Assembly (NCBI RefSeq): GCF_023238625.1
Contig: NZ_CP096670.1
Span: 671,501 to 735,500 of the forward strand
Reading direction: 5' to 3'
From: Agarivorans sp. TSD2052
GTDB lineage: Bacteria; Pseudomonadota; Gammaproteobacteria; Enterobacterales; Celerinatantimonadaceae
DNA length: 64,000 nucleotides
Shown in pieces: positions 26,743 through 60,256 of the stretch. The position numbers and the translations under genes were made by a program. The notes under the pieces were generated by a model. The model worked only from the letters and a program-made list of their open reading frames with translations. It was not told the DNA's origin and did not search any database. Positions within the stretch are counted from its first letter, which is position 1. The number at the start of each line of letters is the position of its first letter.

Positions 26743-28632
26743 TTAAGGTTTTGGGGTCAATATAAAGCGTTTATCACTACTAACAACGAAACCATGGCGT
26801 AAGTAATTTTTACCTAATATCATGCTGTAGCTGAAGTTTTCGCGGTTTTGCAAATTAACCTTTACTATTTCTGTTACCTCACCTAGCTTAACGGTCATTA
26901 AGACGACGGGGCGCGAATTAGCCTTTTCGCCAACTCGTGCTTTAATCACCATCTCATCGACCACTTCACGCGTGAATTGCTGCTTTAATCCTTCTGCGTT
27001 GCTGTAGGTGAATGTCACCATGGTGTTACCGTCTTGCTCGAAATATTGAAGGTTTTCGGCATGCATAGAGCTGACATCCGCACCAGTATCTAGTTTTACT
27101 GAAATGGCTAAATCTTCAACCTTAGCTTGTTCTACATAGCCAGCCTTTACGATATTCCGTTTGCTTAAAATGTGGCTAGTGCGGGTATTGATGAGTATTG
27201 AACCGGTAACAAATTTTTCGCCAATAGCTAGCATTTCAGGATCATCACTAGAAGCCTGCTCTAAGGCTATTTCAGTTTGGTGGTATTCTCCCGCATATTT
27301 AATCATCGGGCTGATCACTGGGCGGGTTACCTCGCCCACCACTATGTTTCGTTCAATGGCTTGCTCAAATAAGTAAACTTTACCTTGGCTATCTGTCGCC
27401 GAAAATGCGGCCAAAGTCTGTTTACTACTGCTTCTTTCAAGTGTTTTTAACGTTTTTACCCGCAGTAAAGAAGTGTTAACGGAAAAAGAAGGTTCAGCCG
27501 GTAGTTCCACATCATTGATTAATAGTGTTTCTTCAGGGGTTATCATTAACGGCGCTTGTTTCACCACATCCATGGCTGATTTTAAAGGCTGGTCTGTTAA
27601 GTACTCGGCGCTTAAATCAATAAGGAAATATTGGTTTAAGGCTTCTTTGCCTAAGCGTAATTGAGTACTACGCTGAGAACGATCTCGTAATACCACCTCT
27701 AGGTGTTTCAGTTCTTGGCCAAAACTAATAGGTATATTCACTAATGGGTGATGGTGTTCGCCAATTTTAAGCATGCGTAGTAGCGGTAAGCTATACATTT
27801 TGGTTTTTTGATTCTTACCTTCAGCTTCAAAGCTCACATGTTGCTTTTTATCATCTATTTTAATATTGCTCGCATGTAGGCTAGTTCGGCGATTTTTTAA
27901 GGACACGCTCACCGCCAATGGCAATTCATCTAAATAGGCTGTTTCTTTAGTGCCAATTATTCTGGCTAAGGGTTCTTGCTGTAAGTAATCGTAACTGGAA
28001 TCTACCCACGCTTGCTCGCGTAGAAAGGTTTTACCGATCAAAATAGGATAAGAAAAGGCGCTACGGTCGGTCAGGTTAACAGCTGTGTTTACCGTTATGT
28101 CACCAGCAGACAATGCTAGTTCTACCACTGGGCGGTAAAGGATGCCGTGATCCCCTCGACCTTGAATTCCACTTAATCGCGCTAAAGGTCGTTCAAGCGG
28201 GATAAGCTCTCCAGTACGGGGGTGAACTAAGTCAAACTTTACGGTGGCTTTGATGTTCCGCTCGGGAGTGTCGAAACTGCTTAACCACCATTCGCTTGCA
28301 GGGTCGCCAAAAGTGTTGGCTATCGCTTCTAGTAACTCTTCACCTTGCAACTGGGAAAACGTTGGATGTTCGCTGTGAATGCTAATGTTAATGGCATGAA
28401 TTGATGTGGTGTCTGCTCCGGTATCGATTTTAGCGGGCACGCCAACACCTTGTAGTTGTTCTACGCCTGAATAATAAATATTTTCAATTCGGCCCATGAC
28501 TAATTTACTGTCTAAGTGGTAATAGGCACCGTTTACATAGAAGGGGCTTTGCTGAAGAGATGTTGCCAAAACAGGAGTTTGGATTGCCAACAGTGAAAAT
28601 AGTATACACACAGAGCGAGAAATAAAATTCAT
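26743..28632 (-). CDS. Periplasmic multi-lobed retropepsin-like protein (RimK/LysX-type Zn-protease fold family)
   Basis: 629 residues with a signal peptide (cleavage near residue 23). Two canonical aspartic-protease motifs occur, KIDTGADTTSIHA (Asp70) and KLDTGADVSSMHA (Asp515), each opening a PF05618-type retropepsin-like domain that ends in an FSYPILIGKTFLR / FSYSMILGKNYLR strand-helix. Between them I find two degenerate copies: residues about 240-345 (VSLKNRRTSLHASNI ... LRLGKEALNQYFLID) and about 380-490 (FSVNTSLLRV ... LAIGEKFVTGSILIN), which keep the C-terminal signature but lack DTG. The outer lobes could pair into one active site as in pepsin. Substrate and partners unknown; the gene is divergent from a coiled-coil protein. 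Confidence 0.85.
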   Translation of the reverse strand: MNFISRSVCILFSLLAIQTPVLATSLQQSPFYVNGAYYHLDSKLVMGRIENIYYSGVEQLQGVGVPAKIDTGADTTSIHAINISIHSEHPTFSQLQGEELLEAIANTFGDPASEWWLSSFDTPERNIKATVKFDLVHPRTGELIPLERPLARLSGIQGRGDHGILYRPVVELALSAGDITVNTAVNLTDRSAFSYPILIGKTFLREQAWVDSSYDYLQQEPLARIIGTKETAYLDELPLAVSVSLKNRRTSLHASNIKIDDKKQHVSFEAEGKNQKTKMYSLPLLRMLKIGEHHHPLVNIPISFGQELKHLEVVLRDRSQRSTQLRLGKEALNQYFLIDLSAEYLTDQPLKSAMDVVKQAPLMITPEETLLINDVELPAEPSFSVNTSLLRVKTLKTLERSSSKQTLAAFSATDSQGKVYLFEQAIERNIVVGEVTRPVISPMIKYAGEYHQTEIALEQASSDDPEMLAIGEKFVTGSILINTRTSHILSKRNIVKAGYVEQAKVEDLAISVKLDTGADVSSMHAENLQYFEQDGNTMVTFTYSNAEGLKQQFTREVVDEMVIKARVGEKANSRPVVLMTVKLGEVTEIVKVNLQNRENFSYSMILGKNYLRHGFVVSSDKRFILTPKP

Positions 28633-29113: not shown

Positions 29114-30976
29114 ATGGATGTTGAACAATTAGATACATTGGCCTGTCAGTTTATTCAGCAAGGAGCCAGCTTAGAAGAGCAGGCTTTTGCTGAGTACATA
29201 AAAGAACAAACTGGCGAGATTGTGCCAGCAGAGCAGCTCAATCAAGTTATTTGCAGTACTCAACAGCGCTTGGCAAAAATGTATGGGCAGCAACATGCTA
29301 TTGCTGAATTACCAAATGGTTTTGCTGAGTCTCTCAACCAATGGTTCGTGCAATTAAATCAATCCACTGAAGCTAGAGTGGAACGTTTAACCAAAGAGAA
29401 ACAAGAACTATGGGAAGAGGGGCGTTTGTCGCTGATCCACGATCATCAACATGCTCTTGCCGAGTCAGAGGCGCGTCACCATACGCTGCAAACGGAGTTA
29501 GTCGAACTTCAACAGCAATTGGATACCTCAACAGCTAACAATAGTGAACAACTCAAGCGATTAGATGAATCTAATCAACACTCAGTAGAGTTGCTGAATC
29601 AGCTTGAAACTGTTCGTATAGACCTTGAGCAAGCAAATGTAAATTCACAACAGCAACACCTTCAGCAGCAACAAATTGAAGCCGCTAATGCAGAGCTAAT
29701 ACAACAATTACAAGTTGCAGAGCAGGAGCTAGCTCAATATAAAGAGAGTGATGCGCTTGCAACGACAAGGCAATCTGAAACAGAACTTGCTTTACGCAAG
29801 CAGCTTGGTGAAATGAGTGAAGCCTTAGATCAAGAATTAGCCCATACTAAACAGTTGACCGAAGAACACTGTGATATTAGTGGCCGAGTGACCGAACTGG
29901 TTAAAGCTAATCAGTTTTTAGAGCAAGAAAATAAGCAATTACAAGAGGGAGACTCTGGTTTAACTCTCGAGCTAGCAGAGCTTAAGCAGAAAAATCAAGA
30001 GTTAGACCAGCAAGTGAAGCAAGCTAATGCCAATAACCAGCAATTGCATGAAAAATCAGAGCAGTTAAGCAAGTTAAATCAACAGTTGAGTGTGAGTTCT
30101 GAGCAGCAAACCCTAGAGGCAAGTCAGCAAACAGAAGAGTTAAGCCTACAATACCAGCAGTTGAAGCAAGAGAATACCCAACAAAAAGAGCAGCTTGAAC
30201 AATTTGAGCAACAGCTTACCCAGTTAAATACTGAGTTGGAAAATTCAGTCATTGACCAAGCGGATAAAGACGCAATATTGGACCGAGAGGTAGCACTAAG
30301 GGAGCAAGTAAGTACTTTAGAGCAACGATGCCTTAGTGATGCACAGAGCATTGAAGCCTTATATCAACAGCAGCAAGAACTAACCGACAGCATTGCCGAT
30401 TTAACCGGGAATAATCAGGCCTTAGAAACCTTAAATAACGGTGTTGAAGCCCAATTAGAACAAGTGCTACCAGAATTAGAGCAATACCAACAACGAGAAA
30501 TTCAATTAGAAAGTAGGATTGAAAAAATCGAGTCTAATTACTTAGAGGCAACCGCTGAATTGACTCAGGCTCGTAGTCAGTTAGCCGCAGCAAACTCGCA
30601 ATTACAATTGAATCATAGCTTGTCTGATGTTGACGGAAGATTATTAGATAAAGAACACCAAATTAATCAAATACAACAGCAACTAAAATCTTTAGAAATA
30701 AGCTTACGTAAAGAGCAAGATGGGCATATTTTGACTAAATTGGCGCTAAGTAAGCTTGACGAAGAGTTTCTTGATAGCAAGATCGATAATGGTTCATTGA
30801 AAGCTAGCCTTGATGAGCTCTCAGATAAGCTTAAGGCAAGTGAAACCTTTAATCGTCAGTTACAAAGACAAGTCAATGAAGCCAACCAGGATATTAGTAG
30901 TTTAAGCTTCGCAAATACCAAGTTGAGTAATCAATTGAGCAATGTAGAGTCACTAAAAGATAAAGATTTAGCGTAG
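29114..30976 (+). CDS. Long coiled-coil protein, unknown function
   Basis: 620 residues without signal peptide or membrane segment. Residues 1-90 are a small, apparently globular helical domain (FIQQGASLEEQAFAEYIKEQ); from about 90 to the end it is nearly continuous coiled coil, very rich in Gln, Glu and Leu. A globular N-terminus followed by a long coil resembles KfrA-type DNA-binding proteins, but I cannot see a clear helix-turn-helix, so this stays open. Alternatives are a cytoskeletal or polar scaffold protein. A strong terminator follows. It is alone on its strand. Confidence 0.7.
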   Translation: MDVEQLDTLACQFIQQGASLEEQAFAEYIKEQTGEIVPAEQLNQVICSTQQRLAKMYGQQHAIAELPNGFAESLNQWFVQLNQSTEARVERLTKEKQELWEEGRLSLIHDHQHALAESEARHHTLQTELVELQQQLDTSTANNSEQLKRLDESNQHSVELLNQLETVRIDLEQANVNSQQQHLQQQQIEAANAELIQQLQVAEQELAQYKESDALATTRQSETELALRKQLGEMSEALDQELAHTKQLTEEHCDISGRVTELVKANQFLEQENKQLQEGDSGLTLELAELKQKNQELDQQVKQANANNQQLHEKSEQLSKLNQQLSVSSEQQTLEASQQTEELSLQYQQLKQENTQQKEQLEQFEQQLTQLNTELENSVIDQADKDAILDREVALREQVSTLEQRCLSDAQSIEALYQQQQELTDSIADLTGNNQALETLNNGVEAQLEQVLPELEQYQQREIQLESRIEKIESNYLEATAELTQARSQLAAANSQLQLNHSLSDVDGRLLDKEHQINQIQQQLKSLEISLRKEQDGHILTKLALSKLDEEFLDSKIDNGSLKASLDELSDKLKASETFNRQLQRQVNEANQDISSLSFANTKLSNQLSNVESLKDKDLA

Positions 30977-40087: not shown

Positions 40088-43000
40088 ATGGAACAAAGTA
40101 TAGCGACCTCAAGTGCGACTATTGTATCTATTCAAGGGCAAGCGTTTGCTGTGGATGAACAAGGCAATATGAGGACCTTACAGCCAGGTGACGTTGTTGT
40201 CCCTGGAGAATTGATTATTACTTCTCAAGGCGCTCAGCTGGGTTTTTATTACGGAGATGACCAGTATTTACTGGGTGATAATAGTGCGACTCAATTACCC
40301 AATGTCCCACAAACCGCAGAGCAAGCTCCCCCTCAACTAACCGCAGTGAATGATTTTGATGTAGAGGCTTTACAACAAGCCATCCTAGAGGGCGTTGATC
40401 CCACAGAGCTATTTGAAGCGACTGCTGCTGGTGGTGCCGCACCTGCTGATGGCGGTGCGGAAGCAGGTAATGGCGGGTTTGTCAGTATTGATCGTATTGG
40501 CAGTGAAACTATTGCGCAAGCTGGCTTTGATACTCAGAGCCCACTAAGTCCAGTAGAGCAAGTAGAAGAAGACACTAATGCAGTAGAGCCCACCGCTGTA
40601 GCTAGTGTTTCTCAGCCAAGCCCTGATCAAGCACCTACCATTGAGGTAACAGCTCAAAGCATTACTGAAGGCTCGGTAGATGCAAACACCGTTATAGCCA
40701 ATTTCATCTCAAATGATCCCGATGGTGATACGCTCACCCACAGTTTACTCAACGATACTCAAGGCTTCTTTGTTATCGATGGGAATCAAGTCAAATTGAC
40801 TGCCGCCGGTATCGATGCTGTCAATAACGATGAATTAAATTTAACTGAGCTGACGATTACAGTGCAGGTTGAAGCAAATGGAATTGCTGTTAGTGATTCT
40901 ACCACTGTTGGCATAGCACGAATTGATGAAGAGTCCTCCAATACAGTGGCTGATTCAGCCGCTACCGATGAAGAACAAAGCGTCACCATCGATGTATTAA
41001 GCAACGATGATTTGACCGATGGCGCCACATTAACCAGCGCTACCGATGGCGCCAACGGCAGCACCGAGATCGTTAACGGCCAAGTGGTATATACGCCCAA
41101 TGCCGATTTTGAGGGTGAAGACAGCTTTAGCTACACCATCACCGATGAAGATGGCAGCACCTCAACCGCGACCGTGACAGTGACCGTCAATGATGAAGGT
41201 GTGCCTGTGGCTGCCGCCGATACCGCCACTACCACAGAAGAACAAAGCGTCACCATCGATGTATTAAGCAACGATGATTTGACCGATGGCGCGACTTTAA
41301 CCAGCGCTACCGATGGCGCCAATGGCAGCATCGAGATCGTTAACGGCCAAGTGGTATATACGCCCAATGCCGATTTTGAGGGTGAAGACAGCTTTAGCTA
41401 CATCATCACCGATGAAGACGGCAGCACCTCAACCGCGACCGTGACAGTGACGGTCAATGATGAAGGTGTGCCCGTGGCTGCCGCCGATACCGCCAGCACC
41501 ACAGAAGAACAATCAGTGACCATCGATGTTACCGATAATGATGCGATGACCGATGGGGCGACCTTAACCAGCGCTACCGATGGAGCCAACGGCAGCACCG
41601 AGATCGTTAACGGCCAAGTGGTATATACGCCCAATGCCGATTTTGAGGGTGAAGACAGCTTTAGCTACACCATCACCGATGAAGATGGCAGTACTTCAAC
41701 CGCGACCGTCACGGTGACCGTCAATGATGAAGGTGTGCCTGTGGCTGCCGCGGATACGGCGACAACCACAGAAGAACAAAGCGTCACCATCGATGTTACC
41801 GACAACGATGCGATGACCGATGGGGCCACCTTAACCAGCGCCACCAATGGCGCCAACGGCAGCACCGAGATCGTTAACGGCCAAGTGGTATATACGCCCA
41901 ATGCCGATTTTGAGGGTGAAGACAGCTTTAGCTACATCATCACCGATGAAGATGGCAGTACTTCAACCGCGACGGTCACGGTGACCGTCAATGATGAAGG
42001 TGTGCCGAGCGCAGTGGCGGATACCGCCAGCACCACAGAAGAACAATCAGTGACCATCGATGTATTAAGTAACGATGATTTGACCGATGGCGCGACCTTA
42101 ACCAGCGCCACCAATGGCGCCAACGGCAGCACCGAGATCGTCAACGGCCAAGTGGTGTATACGCCCAATGCCGATTTTGAGGGTGAAGACAGCTTTAGCT
42201 ACATCATCACCGATGAAGACGGCAGCACCTCAACGGCGACGGTCACGGTAACGGTCAATGATGAAGGTGTGCCTGTGGCTGCCGCCGATACAGCCACAAC
42301 CACAGAAGAACAAAGCGTCACCATCGATGTTACCGATAACGATGCGATGACCGATGGGGCCACCTTAACCAGCGCCACCAATGGCGCCAACGGCAGCACC
42401 GAGATCGTCAACGGCCAAGTGGTGTATACGCCCAATGCCGATTTTGAGGGTGAAGACAGCTTTAGCTACATCATCACCGATGAAGATGGCAGCACTTCAA
42501 CAGCGACCGTCACGGTGACCGTCAATGATGAAGGTGTGCCTGTGGCTGCCGCCGATACCGCCAGCACCACAGAAGAACAATCAGTGACCATCGATGTTAC
42601 CGATAATGATGCGATGACCGATGGGGCGACCTTAACTAGCGCTACCGATGGCGCCAATGGCAGCACCGAGATCGTTAACGGCCAAGTGGTATATACGCCC
42701 AATGCCGATTTTGAGGGTGAAGACAGCTTTAGCTACATCATCACCGATGAAGATGGCAGTACTTCAACCGCGACGGTGACGGTAACGGTGAATGATGAAG
42801 GTGTGCCTGTGGCTGCCGCCGATACGGCGATAACCACTGAAGAACAATCAGTGACCATCGATGTATTAAGCAACGATGATTTGACCGATGGCGCCACATT
42901 AACCAGCGCCACCAATGGCGCCAACGGCAGCACCGAGATCGTCAACGGCCAAGTGGTGTATACGCCCAATGCCGATTTTGAGGGTGAAGACAGCTTTAGC

Positions 43001-46000
43001 TACATCATCACCGATGAAGATGGCAGTACTTCAACCGCGACGGTGACGGTAACGGTGAATGATGAAGGTGTGCCTGTGGCTGCCGCCGATACGGCGATAA
43101 CCACTGAAGAACAATCAGTGACCATCGATGTATTAAGCAACGATGATTTGACCGATGGCGCGACCTTAACCAGCGCCACCAATGGCGCCAACGGCAGCAC
43201 CGAGATCGTCAACGGCCAAGTGGTGTATACGCCCAATGCCGATTTTGAGGGTGAAGACAGCTTTAGCTACATCATCACCGATGAAGACGGCAGCACCTCA
43301 ACGGCGACGGTCACGGTAACGGTCAATGATGAAGGTGTGCCTGTGGCTGCCGCCGATACAGCCACAACCACAGAAGAACAAAGCGTCACCATCGATGTTA
43401 CCGATAACGATGCGATGACCGATGGGGCCACCTTAACCAGCGCTACCGATGGAGCCAACGGCAGCACCGAGATCGTTAACGGCCAAGTGGTATATACGCC
43501 CAATGCCGATTTTGAGGGTGAAGACAGCTTTAGCTACACCATCACCGATGAAGATGGCAGCACCTCAACCGCGACCGTGACAGTGACCGTCAATGATGAA
43601 GGTGTGCCGAGCGCAGTGGCGGATACCGCCAGCACCACAGAAGAACAATCAGTGACCATCGATGTATTAAGTAACGATGATTTGACCGATGGCGCGACCT
43701 TAACCAGCGCCACCAATGGCGCCAACGGCAGCACCGAGATCGTCAACGGCCAAGTGGTGTATACGCCCAATGCCGATTTTGAGGGTGAAGACAGCTTTAG
43801 CTACATCATCACCGATGAAGACGGCAGCACCTCAACGGCGACGGTCACGGTAACGGTCAATGATGAAGGTGTGCCTGTGGCTGCCGCCGATACAGCCACA
43901 ACCACAGAAGAACAAAGCGTCACCATCGATGTTACCGATAACGATGCGATGACCGATGGGGCCACCTTAACCAGCGCCACCAATGGCGCCAACGGCAGCA
44001 CCGAGATCGTCAACGGCCAAGTGGTGTATACGCCCAATGCCGATTTTGAGGGTGAAGACAGCTTTAGCTACATCATCACCGATGAAGATGGCAGCACTTC
44101 AACAGCGACCGTCACGGTGACCGTCAATGATGAAGGTGTGCCTGTGGCTGCCGCCGATACCGCCAGCACCACAGAAGAACAATCAGTGACCATCGATGTT
44201 ACCGATAATGATGCGATGACCGATGGGGCGACCTTAACTAGCGCTACCGATGGCGCCAATGGCAGCACCGAGATCGTTAACGGCCAAGTGGTATATACGC
44301 CCAATGCCGATTTTGAGGGTGAAGACAGCTTTAGCTACATCATCACCGATGAAGATGGCAGTACTTCAACCGCGACCGTGACGGTGACCGTCAATGATGA
44401 AGGTGTGCCCGTGGCTGCCGCGGATACGGCGACAACCACAGAAGAACAAAGCGTCACCATCGATGTTACCGACAACGATGCGATGACCGATGGGGCCACC
44501 TTAACCAGCGCCACCAATGGCGCCAACGGCAGCACCGAGATCGTTAACGGCCAAGTGGTATATACGCCCAATGCCGATTTTGAGGGTGAAGACAGCTTTA
44601 GCTACATCATCACCGATGAAGATGGCAGTACTTCAACCGCGACGGTCACGGTGACCGTCAATGATGAAGGTGTGCCGAGCGCAGTGGCGGATACCGCCAG
44701 CACCACAGAAGAACAATCAGTGACCATCGATGTATTAAGTAACGATGATTTGACCGATGGCGCCACCTTAACCAGCGCCACCAATGGCGCCAACGGCAGC
44801 ACCGAGATCGTTAACGGCCAAGTGGTATATACGCCCAATGCCGATTTTGAGGGTGAAGACAGCTTTAGCTACATCATCACCGATGAAGACGGCAGTACTT
44901 CAACCGCGACCGTGACGGTGACCGTCAATGATGAAGGTGTGCCCGTGGCTGCCGCGGATACGGCGACAACCACAGAAGAACAAAGCGTCACCATCGATGT
45001 TACCGATAACGATGCGATGACCGATGGGGCCACCTTAACCAGCGCTACCGATGGCGCCAACGGCAGCACCGAGATCGTTAACGGCCAAGTGGTATATACG
45101 CCCAATGCCGATTTTGAGGGTGAAGACAGCTTTAGCTACATCATCACCGATGAAGATGGCAGCACCTCAACCGCGACCGTCACGGTGACCGTCAATGATG
45201 AAGGTGTGCCCGTGGCTGCCGCCGATACCGCCACTACCACAGAAGAACAAAGCGTCACCATCGATGTTACCGATAACGATGCGATGACCGATGGCGCGAC
45301 CTTAACCAGCGCTACCGATGGCGCCAATGGCAGCACCGAGATCGTTAACGGCCAAGTGGTATATACGCCCAATGCCGATTTTGAGGGTGAAGACAGCTTT
45401 AGCTACATCATCACCGATGAAGATGGCAGTACCTCAACCGCGACCGTCACAGTGACCGTCAATGATGAAGGTGTGCCTGTGGCTGCCGCCGATACGGCGA
45501 TAACCACTGAAGAACAATCAGTGACCATCGATGTATTAAGCAACGATGATTTGACCGATGGCGCGACCTTAACCAGCGCCACCAATGGCGCCAACGGCAG
45601 CACCGAGATCGTCAACGGCCAAGTGGTGTATACGCCCAATGCCGATTTTGAGGGTGAAGACAGCTTTAGCTACATCATCACCGATGAAGATGGCAGTACT
45701 TCAACCGCGACCGTGACGGTGACCGTCAATGATGAAGGTGTGCCCGTGGCTGCCGCGGATACGGCGACAACCACAGAAGAACAAAGCGTCACCATCGATG
45801 TTACCGACAACGATGCGATGACCGATGGGGCCACCTTAACCAGCGCCACCAATGGCGCCAACGGCAGCACCGAGATCGTCAACGGCCAAGTGGTGTATAC
45901 GCCCAATGCCGATTTTGAGGGTGAAGACAGCTTTAGCTACATCATCACCGATGAAGATGGCAGCACTTCAACAGCGACCGTCACGGTGACCGTCAATGAT

Positions 46001-49000
46001 GAAGGTGTGCCTGTGGCTGCCGCCGATACCGCCAGCACCACAGAAGAACAAAGCGTCACCATCGATGTCACCGATAACGATGCGATGACCGATGGGGCCA
46101 CCTTAACCAGCGCCACCAATGGCGCCAACGGCAGCACCGAGATCGTCAACGGCCAAGTGGTGTATACGCCCAATGCCGATTTTGAGGGTGAAGACAGCTT
46201 TAGCTACATCATCACCGATGAAGACGGCAGCACCTCAACCGCGACCGTGACAGTGACGGTCAATGATGAAGGTGTGCCCGTGGCTGCCGCCGATACCGCC
46301 AGCACCACAGAAGAACAAAGCGTCACCATCGATGTATTAAGCAACGATGATTTGACCGATGGCGCGACTTTAACCAGCGCTACCGATGGCGCCAATGGCA
46401 GCACCGAGATCGTTAACGGCCAAGTGGTGTATACGCCCAATGCCGATTTTGAGGGTGAAGACAGCTTTAGCTACATCATCACCGATGAAGATGGCAGCAC
46501 CTCAACCGCGACCGTGACAGTGACCGTCAATGATGAAGGTGTGCCGAGCGCAGTGGCGGATACCGCAACTACCACAGAAGAACAAAGCGTCACCATCGAT
46601 GTTACCGACAACGATGCGATGATCGATGGTGCGACACTGACCAGCGCTACTAATGGCGCCAACGGCAGCACCGAGATCGTTAACGGCCAAGTGGTGTATA
46701 CGCCCAATGCCGATTTTGAGGGTGAAGACAGCTTTAGCTACATCATCACCGATGAAGATGGCAGCACCTCAACCGCGACCGTCACGGTAACGGTTAATGA
46801 TGAAGGTGTGCCTGTGGCTGCCGCCGATACGGCGACAACCACAGAAGAACAATCAGTCACCATCGATGTTACCGATAACGATGCGATGACAGATAGCGCC
46901 ACATTAACCAGCGCTACTAATGGCGCCAACGGCAGCACCGAGATCGTCAACGGCCAAGTGGTGTATACGCCCAATGCCGATTTTGAGGGTGAAGACAGCT
47001 TTAGCTACATCATCACCGATGAAGATGGCAGCACCTCAACCGCGACCGTCACGGTAACGGTTAATGATGAAGGTGTGCCTGTGGCTGCCGCCGATACGGC
47101 GACAACCACAGAAGAACAATCAGTCACCATCGATGTTACCGACAATGATGCGATGACCGATGGGGCGACTTTAACCAGCGCTACCGATGGCGCCAACGGC
47201 AGCACCGAGATCGTCAACGGCCAAGTGGTGTATACGCCCAACGCCGATTTTGAGGGTGAAGACAGCTTTAGCTACACCATCACCGATGAAGATGGCAGTA
47301 CTTCAACCGCGACCGTGACGGTAACGGTGAATGATGAAGGTGTGCCTGTGGCTGCCGCCGATACCGCCAGCACCACAGAAGAACAAAGCGTCACCATCGA
47401 TGTTACCGACAATGATGCGATGACCGATGGGGCGACTTTAACCAGCGCCACCAATGGCGCCAACGGCAGCACCGAGATCGTTAACGGCCAAGTGGTATAT
47501 ACGCCCAATGCCGATTTTGAGGGTGAAGACAGCTTTAGCTACATCATCACCGATGAAGATGGCAGTACTTCAACCGCGACCGTCACGGTAACGGTAGACC
47601 CTGCACCTAGGGCGGTTGATGATACTGCCCAAGTATTTGAAGCTGGTTTAGCTTCCGGTAGCGAAGCAGGTATTGCCGCAACGACTACAAGTGGAAATTT
47701 ACTCGAAAATGATCAAGCGATTAGCGATGGTTTAGCCATTTCTAGCATTGCTTATGATGGCTCGCCATATACTGCTGATGCCAATGGCGTGATTAGTATT
47801 GATACCGAACAGGGTCAACTAACGGTCTATACCGAAGCGTATAATGGCTTTGCTAAAGGTGACTATGAGTATCAACTCGAGTTGTCTAGCTCAGCGGGAG
47901 ATAATGCCAGTGAAAGCTTTGGTTATGCCATCAGTGACCCCGCAGCGGGTGTTGTTACTCAAGGTACATTAGACGTCAACATTACCGATGATGCGCCGGT
48001 TGGTAGTGATGTTTCACATAACTTAGAATCTAGCCCGCTCGCGATTACCACCAACTTAGTGCTGGTACTCGATACTTCGGCAAGTATGACGAACGGTGAA
48101 CATGGTGATGGTCTTAATTACCTAAATATAGCGGTTGAGGCACTATCAAATCTGATAAACCAAGCAGATGATAGCGGCAATGTGAATGTGCAAATAATCG
48201 GCTTTTCTGACTCAGTAGTAAGTAGCGGTTGGCTTAGCGATAACGTTGCCGATGCTTTAAGTTACCTGCAAGACCTAAGCTCTGGTGGGGGAACCCATTA
48301 TGATGCTGCGTTGAATGAAGTGATTGTTAGCAGTGGTACTGACGTGCAGCCGCCAGCAGATAATACTTTGTTGTACTTTATCTCTGATGGAGAGCCCAAC
48401 TATGGTTTTGGTATCGATGATACGGTGGCATACAACGGGCTAAATGGCCTAGAAGCTTGGGACTCTTTTGTTGAAAATAATATCGATACTAGTTATGGCA
48501 TTGGTATTGGGAATGCCGATTTAGAGGTACTTAAAGATGTTGCTTCGGAATCAGCCAGTGACGAGTTTGCCTTTATTGTAGAAGATCCCTCAGACCTTTC
48601 AGCTACTATTGTTGAGAGTTATTTGGAAGCAGAAGTCAGTGCATCTTTAGGCCTTTTAGAAACCGCTTCAACCGATGGCTTCATCGTCGGCGCTGATGGT
48701 GGTTATGTGAGTGCGATTACTATCGAAGGAACAACTTACACCTATGATCCTAACGCTATTCCTGAAGAACAAAAAACGCTGACAGTCACCACCGCCTTAG
48801 GTGGATTACTGCTGCTTAATTTTGTTACAGGCGCCTATTCTTACGAGCTGGATGTTGCTGGCGATGGCTGGGGACAGCAAGAAAATTGGGCGGTAACGGT
48901 TACCGATTTTGATGGCGACTCTAGTTCCATTAATATTGAAATTAACACCGTGTTTGAAGCTGTTGTTGATGCTAACCGCGATGTAATTATAACCAACCAA

Positions 49001-50296
49001 GACGGCACCAGCACCATTAGCGTGCCAAGTTTGGCCTTGCTTTGGAACGATACAGGGGCCGCTATTAGTTTTGACGGGGTTGATAGCCCAGTTGGCGGCT
49101 CAGTTAGTGGCAGTGATGAAATACTGTTTGATTCTAATGACGGTGTTGGCTTAGGTATTCATGATAGTAATTTTGAAACGGAAGAACTATCGATTATTGG
49201 TACTGAAGCCGATGTGAACTTTGTCGATTTCAATGGCAATAGTGCAGTGGACCTAAGTGACCGCTCATTGTTTAGTTTGAACGACGGAAATATTCCACAA
49301 ATTGTCAGTGGTGGTTATTCTTATACTTATCAAAGTGAGTTAATTAACGACAACTCACCCGCAACTGCGGCCGATGAAGACTGGCTTAAAGTTACCCTAG
49401 CAGAAGGTGAAACTCTGTGGGCTAATATGGCGACTATTTCTGGCCAAGAAAGAGTTAAGGTTGATGCTTATATTTATGATTCAGAGGGTAATCTTTTAAC
49501 TACCGACAATGGCACCACTAAGTTTACTGAAGATTGGCAAGGTCCTCGTGGCAGCTTTACTGCAGATACTGAGGGTGAGTATTATTTACATATAGTGGCC
49601 GACACCGATGAAGACAGTGGTTTCTACCAAATGCACTTAACCATTGACGCTAGCAATGCCATTTACCAAAAATCTGCTGGTACTGACGTAGCAGAACAGT
49701 TTGAGTACAGCATTATTGGTGATGGAGTCATAGACTCAACCACTGCGGAATTAATTGGTGTTCATAGTGATTCTATTGATGGTGGTGACGGCGATGAAGT
49801 ATTGGTTGGTAATTCTGCTGCCAACACCCTTAGTGGAGAAGGTGGTGATGACGCCTTAGTTGGCTATCAAGGCGATGACCAGCTAGCGGGTGGGGAAGGT
49901 TCTGATCTACTGATTGGTGGCCAAGGTAATGACATCCTCACTGGGGGGGATGATAGTGACATGTTCGCTTGGTTAGATGGCGATGATCAAGGCACTACCA
50001 ACGACACTGTCACCGATTTCACTTTAAAGGCGGATGGCGCAGATGCCGATGTTCTTGATTTGAGTGACTTGCTACAAGGTGAAACCGAGGCAAGTTTAGA
50101 GTCTTATTTGTCCTTTGAAACGGTGAGTACTGGCAGTGGTGTTGAAACCATTATTTCCATTGATAAAGATGGCGGTAGCAACGGTGAGAGTGTTCATCAA
50201 ACTATTACCCTGAAAGATGTCGATTTTAGTGGCATGAGTGATAGTGAAATCTTGACTCAATTAATTGAAGATCAACAGCTTAATGTAGATAACTAA
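40088..50296 (+). CDS. lapA: LapA/BpfA-type giant RTX adhesin
   Basis: 3402 residues. Residues 1-110 form the N-terminal retention module that plugs the outer-membrane exporter; a LapG cleavage motif TAAG lies at 112-115. Residues about 287-2502 are 25 tandem Ig/cadherin-like units of 89 residues. After a further Ig-like domain comes a von Willebrand A domain (about 2640-2850) with the MIDAS DTSAS at 2662. A PPC-like beta domain follows near 3080-3190, then RTX nonapeptides (GGDGDEVLVG, GGDDALVGYQGDDQLAGG, GGQGNDILTGG) and a C-terminal type I secretion signal. It is exported by the genes that follow and held on the surface until LapG cuts it. Such adhesins mediate irreversible attachment and biofilm formation. 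Unit number may vary between strains. Confidence 0.95.
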   Translation: MEQSIATSSATIVSIQGQAFAVDEQGNMRTLQPGDVVVPGELIITSQGAQLGFYYGDDQYLLGDNSATQLPNVPQTAEQAPPQLTAVNDFDVEALQQAILEGVDPTELFEATAAGGAAPADGGAEAGNGGFVSIDRIGSETIAQAGFDTQSPLSPVEQVEEDTNAVEPTAVASVSQPSPDQAPTIEVTAQSITEGSVDANTVIANFISNDPDGDTLTHSLLNDTQGFFVIDGNQVKLTAAGIDAVNNDELNLTELTITVQVEANGIAVSDSTTVGIARIDEESSNTVADSAATDEEQSVTIDVLSNDDLTDGATLTSATDGANGSTEIVNGQVVYTPNADFEGEDSFSYTITDEDGSTSTATVTVTVNDEGVPVAAADTATTTEEQSVTIDVLSNDDLTDGATLTSATDGANGSIEIVNGQVVYTPNADFEGEDSFSYIITDEDGSTSTATVTVTVNDEGVPVAAADTASTTEEQSVTIDVTDNDAMTDGATLTSATDGANGSTEIVNGQVVYTPNADFEGEDSFSYTITDEDGSTSTATVTVTVNDEGVPVAAADTATTTEEQSVTIDVTDNDAMTDGATLTSATNGANGSTEIVNGQVVYTPNADFEGEDSFSYIITDEDGSTSTATVTVTVNDEGVPSAVADTASTTEEQSVTIDVLSNDDLTDGATLTSATNGANGSTEIVNGQVVYTPNADFEGEDSFSYIITDEDGSTSTATVTVTVNDEGVPVAAADTATTTEEQSVTIDVTDNDAMTDGATLTSATNGANGSTEIVNGQVVYTPNADFEGEDSFSYIITDEDGSTSTATVTVTVNDEGVPVAAADTASTTEEQSVTIDVTDNDAMTDGATLTSATDGANGSTEIVNGQVVYTPNADFEGEDSFSYIITDEDGSTSTATVTVTVNDEGVPVAAADTAITTEEQSVTIDVLSNDDLTDGATLTSATNGANGSTEIVNGQVVYTPNADFEGEDSFSYIITDEDGSTSTATVTVTVNDEGVPVAAADTAITTEEQSVTIDVLSNDDLTDGATLTSATNGANGSTEIVNGQVVYTPNADFEGEDSFSYIITDEDGSTSTATVTVTVNDEGVPVAAADTATTTEEQSVTIDVTDNDAMTDGATLTSATDGANGSTEIVNGQVVYTPNADFEGEDSFSYTITDEDGSTSTATVTVTVNDEGVPSAVADTASTTEEQSVTIDVLSNDDLTDGATLTSATNGANGSTEIVNGQVVYTPNADFEGEDSFSYIITDEDGSTSTATVTVTVNDEGVPVAAADTATTTEEQSVTIDVTDNDAMTDGATLTSATNGANGSTEIVNGQVVYTPNADFEGEDSFSYIITDEDGSTSTATVTVTVNDEGVPVAAADTASTTEEQSVTIDVTDNDAMTDGATLTSATDGANGSTEIVNGQVVYTPNADFEGEDSFSYIITDEDGSTSTATVTVTVNDEGVPVAAADTATTTEEQSVTIDVTDNDAMTDGATLTSATNGANGSTEIVNGQVVYTPNADFEGEDSFSYIITDEDGSTSTATVTVTVNDEGVPSAVADTASTTEEQSVTIDVLSNDDLTDGATLTSATNGANGSTEIVNGQVVYTPNADFEGEDSFSYIITDEDGSTSTATVTVTVNDEGVPVAAADTATTTEEQSVTIDVTDNDAMTDGATLTSATDGANGSTEIVNGQVVYTPNADFEGEDSFSYIITDEDGSTSTATVTVTVNDEGVPVAAADTATTTEEQSVTIDVTDNDAMTDGATLTSATDGANGSTEIVNGQVVYTPNADFEGEDSFSYIITDEDGSTSTATVTVTVNDEGVPVAAADTAITTEEQSVTIDVLSNDDLTDGATLTSATNGANGSTEIVNGQVVYTPNADFEGEDSFSYIITDEDGSTSTATVTVTVNDEGVPVAAADTATTTEEQSVTIDVTDNDAMTDGATLTSATNGANGSTEIVNGQVVYTPNADFEGEDSFSYIITDEDGSTSTATVTVTVNDEGVPVAAADTASTTEEQSVTIDVTDNDAMTDGATLTSATNGANGSTEIVNGQVVYTPNADFEGEDSFSYIITDEDGSTSTATVTVTVNDEGVPVAAADTASTTEEQSVTIDVLSNDDLTDGATLTSATDGANGSTEIVNGQVVYTPNADFEGEDSFSYIITDEDGSTSTATVTVTVNDEGVPSAVADTATTTEEQSVTIDVTDNDAMIDGATLTSATNGANGSTEIVNGQVVYTPNADFEGEDSFSYIITDEDGSTSTATVTVTVNDEGVPVAAADTATTTEEQSVTIDVTDNDAMTDSATLTSATNGANGSTEIVNGQVVYTPNADFEGEDSFSYIITDEDGSTSTATVTVTVNDEGVPVAAADTATTTEEQSVTIDVTDNDAMTDGATLTSATDGANGSTEIVNGQVVYTPNADFEGEDSFSYTITDEDGSTSTATVTVTVNDEGVPVAAADTASTTEEQSVTIDVTDNDAMTDGATLTSATNGANGSTEIVNGQVVYTPNADFEGEDSFSYIITDEDGSTSTATVTVTVDPAPRAVDDTAQVFEAGLASGSEAGIAATTTSGNLLENDQAISDGLAISSIAYDGSPYTADANGVISIDTEQGQLTVYTEAYNGFAKGDYEYQLELSSSAGDNASESFGYAISDPAAGVVTQGTLDVNITDDAPVGSDVSHNLESSPLAITTNLVLVLDTSASMTNGEHGDGLNYLNIAVEALSNLINQADDSGNVNVQIIGFSDSVVSSGWLSDNVADALSYLQDLSSGGGTHYDAALNEVIVSSGTDVQPPADNTLLYFISDGEPNYGFGIDDTVAYNGLNGLEAWDSFVENNIDTSYGIGIGNADLEVLKDVASESASDEFAFIVEDPSDLSATIVESYLEAEVSASLGLLETASTDGFIVGADGGYVSAITIEGTTYTYDPNAIPEEQKTLTVTTALGGLLLLNFVTGAYSYELDVAGDGWGQQENWAVTVTDFDGDSSSINIEINTVFEAVVDANRDVIITNQDGTSTISVPSLALLWNDTGAAISFDGVDSPVGGSVSGSDEILFDSNDGVGLGIHDSNFETEELSIIGTEADVNFVDFNGNSAVDLSDRSLFSLNDGNIPQIVSGGYSYTYQSELINDNSPATAADEDWLKVTLAEGETLWANMATISGQERVKVDAYIYDSEGNLLTTDNGTTKFTEDWQGPRGSFTADTEGEYYLHIVADTDEDSGFYQMHLTIDASNAIYQKSAGTDVAEQFEYSIIGDGVIDSTTAELIGVHSDSIDGGDGDEVLVGNSAANTLSGEGGDDALVGYQGDDQLAGGEGSDLLIGGQGNDILTGGDDSDMFAWLDGDDQGTTNDTVTDFTLKADGADADVLDLSDLLQGETEASLESYLSFETVSTGSGVETIISIDKDGGSNGESVHQTITLKDVDFSGMSDSEILTQLIEDQQLNVDN
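40421..40432 (+). other. Predicted LapG cleavage site (TAAG) in the adhesin
   Basis: Codons ACT GCT GCT GGT encode T112-A113-A114-G115 within ELFEATAAGGAAPADGG. The di-alanine TAAG/PAAG motif about 110 residues from the N-terminus is the established LapG site in LapA-type adhesins. It sits directly after the retention module and before the first extracellular segment. Confidence 0.85.
41981..42772 (+). repeat. Three-unit block, copy 1 of an internal duplication
   Basis: By eye this stretch of about 792 bp is identical to 43583-44374, 1602 bp (six units) downstream, including rare synonymous variants such as CTTAACTAGC and GATACAGCCACAACC. It diverges at both ends. Confidence 0.75.
43583..44374 (+). 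repeat. Three-unit block, copy 2 of an internal duplication
   Basis: Second copy of the block at 41981-42772. Shared silent differences across three units point to a recent block duplication or gene conversion rather than selection on protein sequence. Confidence 0.75.
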
Positions 50297-59332: not shown

Positions 59333-60256
59333 ATGATTTTAGTTTTTGCCATGGATTGCACTATGAATAACCAAACACTCGATCAATACTCCTGCTATAG
59401 CGAATTGACTCATCCTCAGCAATTTGAACCGCAATTAGTTAACCTGCCTGATTCAGTGGCTGACATTGTTAACTTGGTTCAGCACAACCTAGTACATGCT
59501 TACTGGCTCGATAAATACCAAATTAACCAGCCTTTCCAAAGCAAGTTTACTGAAATGCAAGCCCGCAGCATAAGTGAAATGCTGACCATTCTAGATGCTA
59601 GAAGTGGTACCAGCCTACTAGAGAATAAAGCCCCTGATCAGCGATTAGTGGGGGTGTGCCGCGACTTTTCCATCATGGCGTGTATGTTGCTGCAAACCCA
59701 AGGTATCGCCGCGCGTTTGCGTTGTGGTTTTGCTACATACTTAGGTTTGCGAGAATATGAAGACCACTGGGTTTGTGAGTACTGGCATCAACATCAACAG
59801 CGTTGGGTAATGGTAGATGCACAGCTAGATCAGGTACATAAAGAGATACTAGATATAGATTTTGACCCTTTAGATGTGCCGCATAATCGATTTATTTACG
59901 CCGGAAGCGCTTGGCAAATGTGCCGTGCTAATCTGGCGGAGTCGAGTAGCTTTGGCATTTTTAACTTTACTGGATGGCCAATAATTAAAGGTAACCTTAT
60001 TAGGGATGTTTTCGCCCTCAATCAAATAGAGTTACTGGCCTGGGATTGTGGTTGGGGTATTTTACCTAGCTACTTAGTCGATATCGCCGATGACAAAGAA
60101 TGGCTGCTACTGGATGAATTAGCCAACATTAGTCATGGCTCAGATTTTAGCAAAGCCCAACAAGCGTGCGATAAACAAGCCGCTATTGCTTTACCGAGTG
60201 ACTGGCGTTGGTCTCAAGCGCCAAGCATTGCTGAATTGCTGCGTCACTACCAATAA
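59333..60256 (+). CDS. Transglutaminase-like domain protein
   Basis: 307 residues (fewer if ATG 59351 or 59363 is used; none has a convincing ribosome binding site). A transglutaminase-like core has Cys in LVGVCRDFSIMACMLL, His in YEDHWVCEYW and Asp in WVMVDAQLD. There is no signal peptide, so it is cytoplasmic, unlike LapG. Such proteins may be amidases or peptidases of unknown substrate. It follows the Lap operon by 114 bp and is probably separate. Confidence 0.8.
   Translation: MILVFAMDCTMNNQTLDQYSCYSELTHPQQFEPQLVNLPDSVADIVNLVQHNLVHAYWLDKYQINQPFQSKFTEMQARSISEMLTILDARSGTSLLENKAPDQRLVGVCRDFSIMACMLLQTQGIAARLRCGFATYLGLREYEDHWVCEYWHQHQQRWVMVDAQLDQVHKEILDIDFDPLDVPHNRFIYAGSAWQMCRANLAESSSFGIFNFTGWPIIKGNLIRDVFALNQIELLAWDCGWGILPSYLVDIADDKEWLLLDELANISHGSDFSKAQQACDKQAAIALPSDWRWSQAPSIAELLRHYQ

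Follow-up and report, generated by a model that had tools for sequence, protein, structure and literature searches.

A predicted four-lobe relative of the RloA aspartic peptidases with catalytic motifs in its first and last lobes

Introduction

Pepsin-like proteases are single chains whose two catalytic lobes arose by duplication and contribute one aspartate each. The origin of such two-lobe aspartic proteases from dimeric ancestors is a classic question that, to our knowledge, has been studied mostly from one event. In the acid-protease superfamily, as set out in the part of PMC11313796 drawn on here, two-lobe chains form the pepsin-like family and the members of the other three families have one lobe and act as dimers; Lpg0085 of Legionella (2pma; SCOP Lpg0085-like) is such a protein, with one domain and a dimeric assembly. 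Here we analyse a gene of Agarivorans sp. TSD2052 that encodes an RloA-like protein with, almost certainly, four such lobes in one chain. The gene lies in a 64,000-nucleotide stretch of contig NZ_CP096670.1 (positions 671,501 to 735,500, forward strand), which is referred to below as the window.

The closest described proteins are RloA, RloA2 and RloA3 of Pseudomonas (9g58, 9g59). The portion of PMC12239564 used here describes them as homodimers of single-domain chains that have long flaps and a conserved disulfide. RloA is encoded in an operon with rloB and rloC, and RloA2 and RloA3 are encoded elsewhere; P. aeruginosa jointly requires RloA proteases to survive hypo-osmotic stress, and K46, R92, R114 and R137 of P. 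aeruginosa RloA are among the residues modelled as contacting poly-glutamate (PMC12239564, same portion). Another relative, RimB, is a cytoplasmic single-domain protein whose fusion partner in the RimBK hybrid is the RimK ligase rather than a second copy of RimB, according to the section of PMC11957791 consulted. Single-chain retropepsins also exist as engineered tethered dimers of the human immunodeficiency virus type 1 (HIV-1) protease (e.g. 1hvc, 4ep2); these are man-made, and their two lobes are copies of the same viral monomer.

Four homologous lobes in one chain

The preliminary description, made from the sequence of the window, had proposed a secreted protein with four retropepsin-like lobes of which only the first and last are catalytic. 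Pfam matches, hhalign comparisons, AlphaFold2 models and conserved motifs all agree with this proposal, export being probable, and we regard it as nearly certain that the chain consists of four lobes of one fold with only two of them catalytic. The whole chain scored 175 bits against PF05618 (Zn_protease, the RloA/RimB/Lpg0085-like retropepsins) in four stretches, well above the curated cut-off of 27 bits. These four stretches are not the four lobes: two fall in lobe 1 and one each in lobes 2 and 4. The expectation of PF05618 hits along the chain thus held for lobes 1, 2 and 4 and failed for lobe 3, which gave no PF05618 match when scanned alone against Pfam. Pfam alone was accordingly discarded as proof of lobe 3, for which profile-profile comparison and structure prediction were needed.

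Lobe profiles for hhalign were built from alignment A2, which contains 46 full-length proteins chosen from 81 sequences as one per 85% identity group (L079, truncated by the choice of start, was omitted and L106 was added). Lobe 3 matched lobe 2 with a score of 94 and a probability of 98.7%, and lobe 4 with a score of 76 and 97.8%. Lobe 2 matched lobes 1, 3 and 4 at 97.8, 98.5 and 99.1%, respectively. Column-shuffled controls, 40 per lobe pair over all six pairs, reached at most a score of 24.0 and a probability of 8.9%, and those for the pairs involving lobe 3 at most 20.9 and 4.6%. The self-comparison suggested in the preliminary description recovers lobe 3 through lobes 2 and 4. Lobe 3 matches lobe 1 only weakly (23.5% in one hhalign run and 66.2%, over partial length, in another), which counts against the homology of lobe 3.

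The four-lobe pattern is more than chance because it recurs in 141 distinct proteins. This conservation set includes the TSD2052 protein and covers Agarivorans, Aliagarivorans, Psychromonas, Photobacterium and Vibrio; no member is contained in another. Lobe 1 is about 38 residues longer than lobe 4, the extra stretch lying near residues 88–127 by inspection. In 60 random rows, the mean pairwise identity was 0.46 and 0.44 for the inner lobes versus 0.55 and 0.67 for the outer lobes.

Catalytic motifs and channel residues

Two DTGAD motifs are found where they had been reported, at Asp70 and Asp515, 445 residues apart, and the segments quoted in the preliminary description are present in the open reading frame. 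The spacing between the two DTGA motifs ranges from 437 to 458 residues in the 140 rows measured. Both motifs are nearly invariant in the conservation set (Table 1); the single remaining row for lobe 1, L079, is a gap from start trimming, and the open frame of L079 holds KIDTGAD. The lysine two residues before DTG(A), a trait of RloA, is present in lobes 1 and 4 across the 141 proteins. By motif and spacing, K46, R114 and R137 of RloA correspond to K68, R167 and R190 in lobe 1 and to K513, R574 and R597 in lobe 4.

The inner lobes have lost DTG, as had been noted from the sequence: in the hhalign alignments SLKN of lobe 2 and SFSV of lobe 3 stand opposite DTGA. Column 244 in the lobe 2 loop holds Ser in 131 of the 141 rows, Thr in five, Ala in four and Leu in one; column 382 in the lobe 3 loop holds Ser in 110, Thr in 24, Asp in five and Ala in two. 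The five rows with Asp were rejected as catalytic, the following TG being missing in all of them, and neither inner catalytic loop carries DTG or DSG in any of the 141 rows. Thirty further DTG or DSG words are present in these rows beyond the two catalytic positions, the largest group being 12 at position 339 (C-terminal strand of lobe 2), with eight at position 546 (lobe 4). None is in a catalytic loop, and they were dismissed as hidden catalytic sites. The flap tip of the inner lobes is six residues shorter than that of lobe 4 in the hhalign alignments. The inner lobes nonetheless retain part of the channel: in lobe 2, Arg occupies column 295 in 110 of the 141 rows (His in the TSD2052 protein) and column 318 in 138, and lobe 3 keeps one channel arginine, at column 437, in all 141.

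Table 1. Positions in the window of the four-lobe gene, its lobes and its motifs, and loci of the two-lobe relatives
Feature	Window coordinates	Strand	Remarks
Four-lobe RloA-like protein gene	26743..28632	minus	629 amino acids, ATG start
Likely Sec signal peptide, residues 1–23	28564..28632	minus	Cleavage near VLA/TS, placed by eye
Lobe 1, residues 41–223, catalytic	27964..28512	minus	PF05618 66.5 bits in two stretches; hhalign 99.8% versus lobe 4
Catalytic motif DTGAD, Asp70 to Asp74, after Lys68	28411..28425	minus	K68, D70, T71, G72 and A73 in 140 of 141
Arg167 to Arg190, lobe 1	28063..28134	minus	Both in 141 of 141; 23-residue spacing as in RloA Arg114/Arg137
Lobe 2, residues 224–357, non-catalytic	27562..27963	minus	PF05618 38.4 bits; hhalign 99.3 and 99.1% versus lobe 4
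Degenerate catalytic loop of lobe 2, SLKN (244–247)	27892..27903	minus	Asp replaced by Ser
Lobe 3, residues 358–492, non-catalytic, most diverged	27157..27561	minus	No PF05618 match alone; hhalign, AlphaFold2
Degenerate catalytic loop of lobe 3, SFSV (382–385)	27478..27489	minus	Opposite DTGA in alignment
Lobe 4, residues 493–629, catalytic	26746..27156	minus	PF05618 80 bits; closest to single-domain RloA
Catalytic motif DTGAD, Asp515 to Asp519, after Lys513	27076..27090	minus	K513, L514, D515, T516, G517 and A518 all in 141 of 141
Arg574 to Arg597, lobe 4	26842..26913	minus	Both in 141 of 141; second RloA-like pair, 23-residue spacing
Two-lobe loci			L233–L244 and L035 (genus code g9); L248 (genus code g14)

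Likely export signal and relation to described families

AAGG stands a short way upstream of the ATG start codon. The N-terminus reaches a hydropathy of 3.09 across 10 residues, compared with at most 1.55 in residues 41–629. A charged N-terminus, a hydrophobic core and an A-x-A-like site occur together in 129 of the 141 four-lobe proteins, as scored by a simple hydropathy script. These sequence features suggest that the protein is exported and probably periplasmic. The sole cysteine, Cys9, is within the likely signal peptide; the mature chain is cysteine-free and has no RloA-type disulfide.

The protein resembles the RloA proteins in its PF05618 domain, the K-x-DTGA motif and the 23-residue arginine pair (RloA features as given in the part of PMC12239564 used); RloA has a signal peptide, of which the N-terminus here shows likely features, and 9g58, 9g59 and 2pma are its best PDB matches by both sequence and fold. 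Lpg0085 is matched by phmmer at E 9.4e-15, with a template modelling (TM) score of 0.79–0.84 for one lobe. RimB shares the same superfamily domain, and the NCBIfam RimB model scored 80.2 bits, below its cut-off of 200. The three NCBIfam RloA models likewise stayed below their cut-offs (NF052262, 134.8 of 280 bits; NF052263, 131.4 of 250; NF052264, 139.9 of 210). The chain differs from RloA in having four lobes, two of them dead, and a mature part free of cysteine. It is within the PF05618 superfamily yet outside the definition of RloA, since the score cut-offs, the single-domain chain, the disulfide and the rlo operon all fail. No multi-lobe form was found among the NCBI families searched, and none was recognised by title or abstract among the matches listed in the open-licence PMC literature.

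Pepsin-like proteases belong to another family of the superfamily and have no dead lobes between the catalytic ones, whereas the duplication seen here took place within the Lpg0085/RloA domain. The comparison with pepsin is an analogy, and the four-lobe chain is taken to be a separate event inside the Lpg0085/RloA family.

Predicted structure and proposed pairing of the lobes

AlphaFold2, run on alignment A2, modelled the whole chain with a mean predicted local distance difference test score (pLDDT) of 89.7 and a predicted TM score (pTM) of 0.87. By eye, the strand order is alike in every lobe of this model, and lobe 3 is without the short C-terminal helix. Foldseek found Lpg0085 (2pma) and RloA2/RloA (9g59, 9g58) as the best PDB matches of the whole chain, at a probability of 1.00, followed by tethered HIV protease dimers. 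Pepsin-fold entries, including plasmepsins, reached a TM score (target) of only 0.16–0.25 among the matches listed, so that the retropepsin match is the better one.

Residues 224–492, comprising lobes 2 and 3, were also modelled alone (pLDDT 94.9, pTM 0.88). The preliminary description had named a fold other than that of retropepsins in residues 240–490 as an outcome that would speak against it; the fragment model instead matches 2pma, 9g58 and 9g59 at a probability of 1.00 and TM scores (target) of 0.77–0.81. It also matches the tethered HIV-1 dimers as a pair. Superposed on the single-chain tethered dimers (ranks 7–21), the fragment gave TM scores (target) of 0.44–0.51 over 242–261 columns, and a single HIV chain gave 0.47–0.56. 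Because the tethered-dimer and single-chain values are about equal, lobes 2 and 3 appear to fit the HIV dimer together. The full-length model scored 0.26–0.33 against the tethered dimers (ranks 7–21), about one lobe's worth. Sequence identity to the tethered dimers was 10–12% for the full-length model versus 8–10% for the fragment; the higher identity suggests that a DTG-bearing lobe was probably aligned in the full-length match, that is, lobes 1 and 2 or lobes 3 and 4. The models therefore support, without proving, an intramolecular pseudo-dimer of the inner lobes 2 and 3. If the inner lobes pair in this way, lobe 1 would by elimination pair with lobe 4.

Proposed mode of action and its alternatives

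We consider it probable that the protein is a single-chain periplasmic aspartic endopeptidase of the RloA type, with an active pseudo-dimer of lobes 1 and 4 and a dead pair of lobes 2 and 3. One four-lobe chain would replace the RloA/RimB (Lpg0085-like) homodimer. Lobes 1 and 4 would join as an intramolecular, pseudo-symmetric dimer to which each contributes one aspartate (Asp70 and Asp515) and one flap, and their lysines and arginines would form the walls of a positively charged channel that takes up acidic chains, probably rich in glutamate. The two inner lobes, which lack the aspartate and the flap tips, would pair as a dead pseudo-dimer and keep lobes 1 and 4 in position. They may in addition hold the acidic substrate as an exosite, since some of the channel arginines are conserved in both of them. 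Catalytic activity, the class of substrate and the exosite or scaffold role are our inferences. By analogy with RloA, a role in envelope or osmotic homeostasis would be the natural guess.

Several observations weigh against this arrangement. The disulfide of periplasmic RloA is missing from the mature four-lobe chain. The fragment superpositions on HIV dimers have a high root-mean-square deviation, 7.8–11.1 Å. The assignment of the full-length match to lobes 1 and 2 or lobes 3 and 4 is our deduction from Foldseek output that carries no aligned ranges, and if lobes 2 and 3 are rearranged in the whole chain, the argument for the pairing of lobes 1 and 4 falls. Coevolution, in the form of mean-field couplings over the 141 sequences (effective number 52), was rejected as a guide to lobe pairing, the top couplings forming one phylogenetic block. 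We placed R92 of RloA at Arg152 in lobe 1 (Arg in 129 of 141) and at Asp559 in lobe 4, a position where 117 of the 141 rows have Asp; lobes 1 and 4 would therefore contribute unlike halves to the channel. Finally, the only rloB-type match in the genome (PF14402) is away from the four-lobe gene, which is thus not in an rlo operon, and no conserved operon partner was found over 18 loci (of 80 named), the neighbours differing between genera.

One alternative arrangement would be a chain that is active only as a homodimer, with lobe 1 facing lobe 1 or lobe 4 of the partner and lobe 4 facing lobe 4 or lobe 1, so that the assembly has two active sites and the inner pair acts as a linker. Single-domain RloA proteins are homodimeric in the crystal and in solution, as reported in the portion of PMC12239564 used here, and conservation of both outer DTG motifs is predicted equally well by such an assembly. 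The confident modelling of the whole chain as a monomer (pTM 0.87) argues against it, as does the inner pair, whose apparent intramolecular pairing favours the same for the outer pair. The outer lobes also differ in length and at the Arg92 position, which would make the sites formed by two copies of lobe 1 and by two copies of lobe 4 unlike each other. We judge the homodimer unlikely, though worth keeping in mind.

The retained arginines of the dead lobes would also suit a periplasmic protein that binds and senses acidic polymers or poly-glutamate and keeps its catalytic site for the ligand, with no turnover in vivo. In line with this, the part of PMC12239564 drawn on states that no genome-encoded poly-glutamate substrate was found for RloA, and the four-lobe gene is near ompR and envZ in one annotated Vibrio locus (L063). 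Yet the paired DTGA motifs, whose conservation is what an active aspartic protease requires, and the need of RloA for its aspartate in vivo (PMC12239564, same part) speak for turnover; ompR–envZ clusters occur near the gene in only six of the 18 loci, and no gene of the 64-kb window is among them. Binding without turnover is improbable on this evidence. More doubtful still is a pairing of adjacent lobes (1 with 2 and 3 with 4) into two one-aspartate pseudo-dimers, making a binding protein and not a protease: tandem duplication usually gives adjacent pairs, pepsin being one example and the two-lobe relatives described below presumably another, but lobes 2 and 3 fit a retropepsin dimer while the pair aligned in the full model, as deduced above, does not, and it would go unexplained why lobes 1 and 4 retain DTGA and the channel residues when lobes 2 and 3 do not fully do so.

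A single-chain endopeptidase with its active site between lobes 1 and 4 would be a naturally occurring, covalently linked form of the RloA peptidases, which were described recently and matter for the envelope and for tolerance of osmotic stress. Its half-sites could be mutated singly, unlike those of a homodimer. The pairing of lobes would be nested and not tandem and, if true, has no counterpart in pepsins.

Distribution and lobe phylogeny

Among 60 near relatives, the TSD2052 genome included, 11 have a full-length four-lobe match. A sample of 394 genomes of the order gave 32 genomes with such a match, distributed over families f1 (nine), f11 (two) and f21 (21). The order-wide search was run at a threshold of E 1e-25, and rows spanning most of the 622-position model were counted as full length. 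Of 329 genomes in f21, the Vibrio family, 156 gave a match at E 1e-40; the majority of these matches, though not every one, were of full length. Carriers among the best 80 of 150 confirmed belong to Agarivorans, Aliagarivorans, Vibrio, Photobacterium, Psychromonas and one unclassified member of the Vibrionales. The form called for a look at its phylogenetic spread from the outset, and among the genomes drawn from the order it proves to be present in three families.

Nine of the full-length matches are flagged with one internal stop codon, eight of them in f21 (G731, G561, G573, G600, G670, G551, G679 and G590) and one in the order-wide sample (G896); the flag may mark a broken gene or a match that extends beyond the gene end. 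One genome (L211, G497:C23:128718-132728) carries two full-length four-lobe genes in tandem, a gene duplication. A contig labelled as a Nitrosomonas metagenome-assembled genome (L066, BQJA01000064.1) has a full-length four-lobe gene with 44% identity; it is perhaps a misbinned contig or a transfer.

The other order-wide matches are in the lobe 4 region, to which single-domain relatives align, and a few reach lobe 3 positions. Among those that do, G850, G996 and G628 were rejected as partial intermediates; they are single-domain proteins with long N-termini. No three-lobe form was found in the order-wide search at E 1e-25, a threshold that weaker ones could escape. A survey of the class gave a match in 175 of 369 genomes and, among the matches listed, no frame matched twice. 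The statement that members of the family are usually single-domain thus holds among the matches listed, four-lobe proteins aside, and needs amending only in that two-lobe forms exist too.

A tree was built from 62 lobes, taken from nine of 27 four-lobe proteins, three of five two-lobe proteins and 20 single domains. Lobes 1, 2, 3 and 4 come out as one group each, with 98–99% support in the Shimodaira–Hasegawa-like approximate likelihood ratio test (SH-aLRT). When all 36 lobes of the four-lobe proteins were held together, the log-likelihood was 12.9 higher and the approximately unbiased test gave p-AU 0.80, so this tree fits at least equally well. The grouping is consistent with one series of internal duplications that would have preceded the split of the carrier families.

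Two-lobe single-chain relatives

A two-lobe protein of about 300 residues with a signal-like N-terminus was found in 17 of 295 genomes searched. Sixteen of these have a full-length match and all carry genus code g9; the other has genus code g14 (L248, a frame matched twice). Thirteen two-lobe genes were read: DTGA is present in both lobes of 12, and the remaining one combines DTGA with DSGA. Two PF05618 stretches are present in the one two-lobe protein scanned with Pfam. Given that both catalytic aspartates are kept in the two-lobe relatives, two-lobe and four-lobe chains each carry exactly one dyad.

In a quick tree that included three g9 proteins, their two lobes fell beside a short single-domain paralogue encoded in the TSD2052 genome and away from the four lobes, and the two-lobe form looks like a separate duplication. 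It would be a natural analogue of the pepsin layout within the RloA/RimB family. We put at about even chances a wider reading in which single-chain retropepsins arose at least twice from the dimeric RloA/RimB domain, once as a two-lobe chain with both lobes catalytic and once as a four-lobe chain in which lobes 1 and 4 are nested across a dead pair of lobes 2 and 3 that serves as scaffold and holder of acidic chains, the latter without a counterpart among pepsins. Since living relatives include dimers of one lobe, chains of two lobes and chains of four lobes whose inner pair is dead, the path can be compared directly.

Genomic context

In the TSD2052 genome, a single contig of 4.6 Mb, four genes match PF05618. 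One of them, a single-domain gene at 2652604, directly precedes the rloB-type gene and forms an ordinary rlo pair with it (G000:C1:2652604-2654537). With this rloA-like/rloB-type pair in the same genome, the four-lobe protein would add to the rlo system and not replace it. A search of the genome with PF14403 gave no match, and is a poor test for rloC. In another bacterium, disruption of an inactive transglutaminase gene with seven transmembrane helices, of the RloB kind, raised the number of membrane vesicles, as described in the part of PMC12096838 consulted; this phenotype is a hint that rlo genes affect the envelope.

Gene neighbourhood was discarded as a guide to function, as it is not conserved over the 18 loci. 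In the Vibrio owensii locus L063 (5412-12737), the four-lobe gene has as neighbours genes for an S1-domain protein, which we take to be Tex-like, GreB, OmpR and EnvZ. Clusters of the S1-domain protein, GreB, OmpR and EnvZ recur in eight, six, six and six of the 18 loci, respectively; the OmpR cluster includes, in locus L056, an extra response regulator of another kind. The closeness to the osmotic regulator OmpR/EnvZ is suggestive at most.

In the window, the divergent neighbour of the four-lobe gene (29114-30976, plus strand) encodes a Gln/Glu-rich protein of 620 amino acids that is probably largely coiled coil, according to a weak Pfam match below the cut-off. The Agarivorans locus L037 has a relative of this neighbour close to its four-lobe gene. 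Farther along, an open reading frame of 3402 amino acids (40088-50296, plus strand) is followed by a run of genes on the same strand up to about position 60256.

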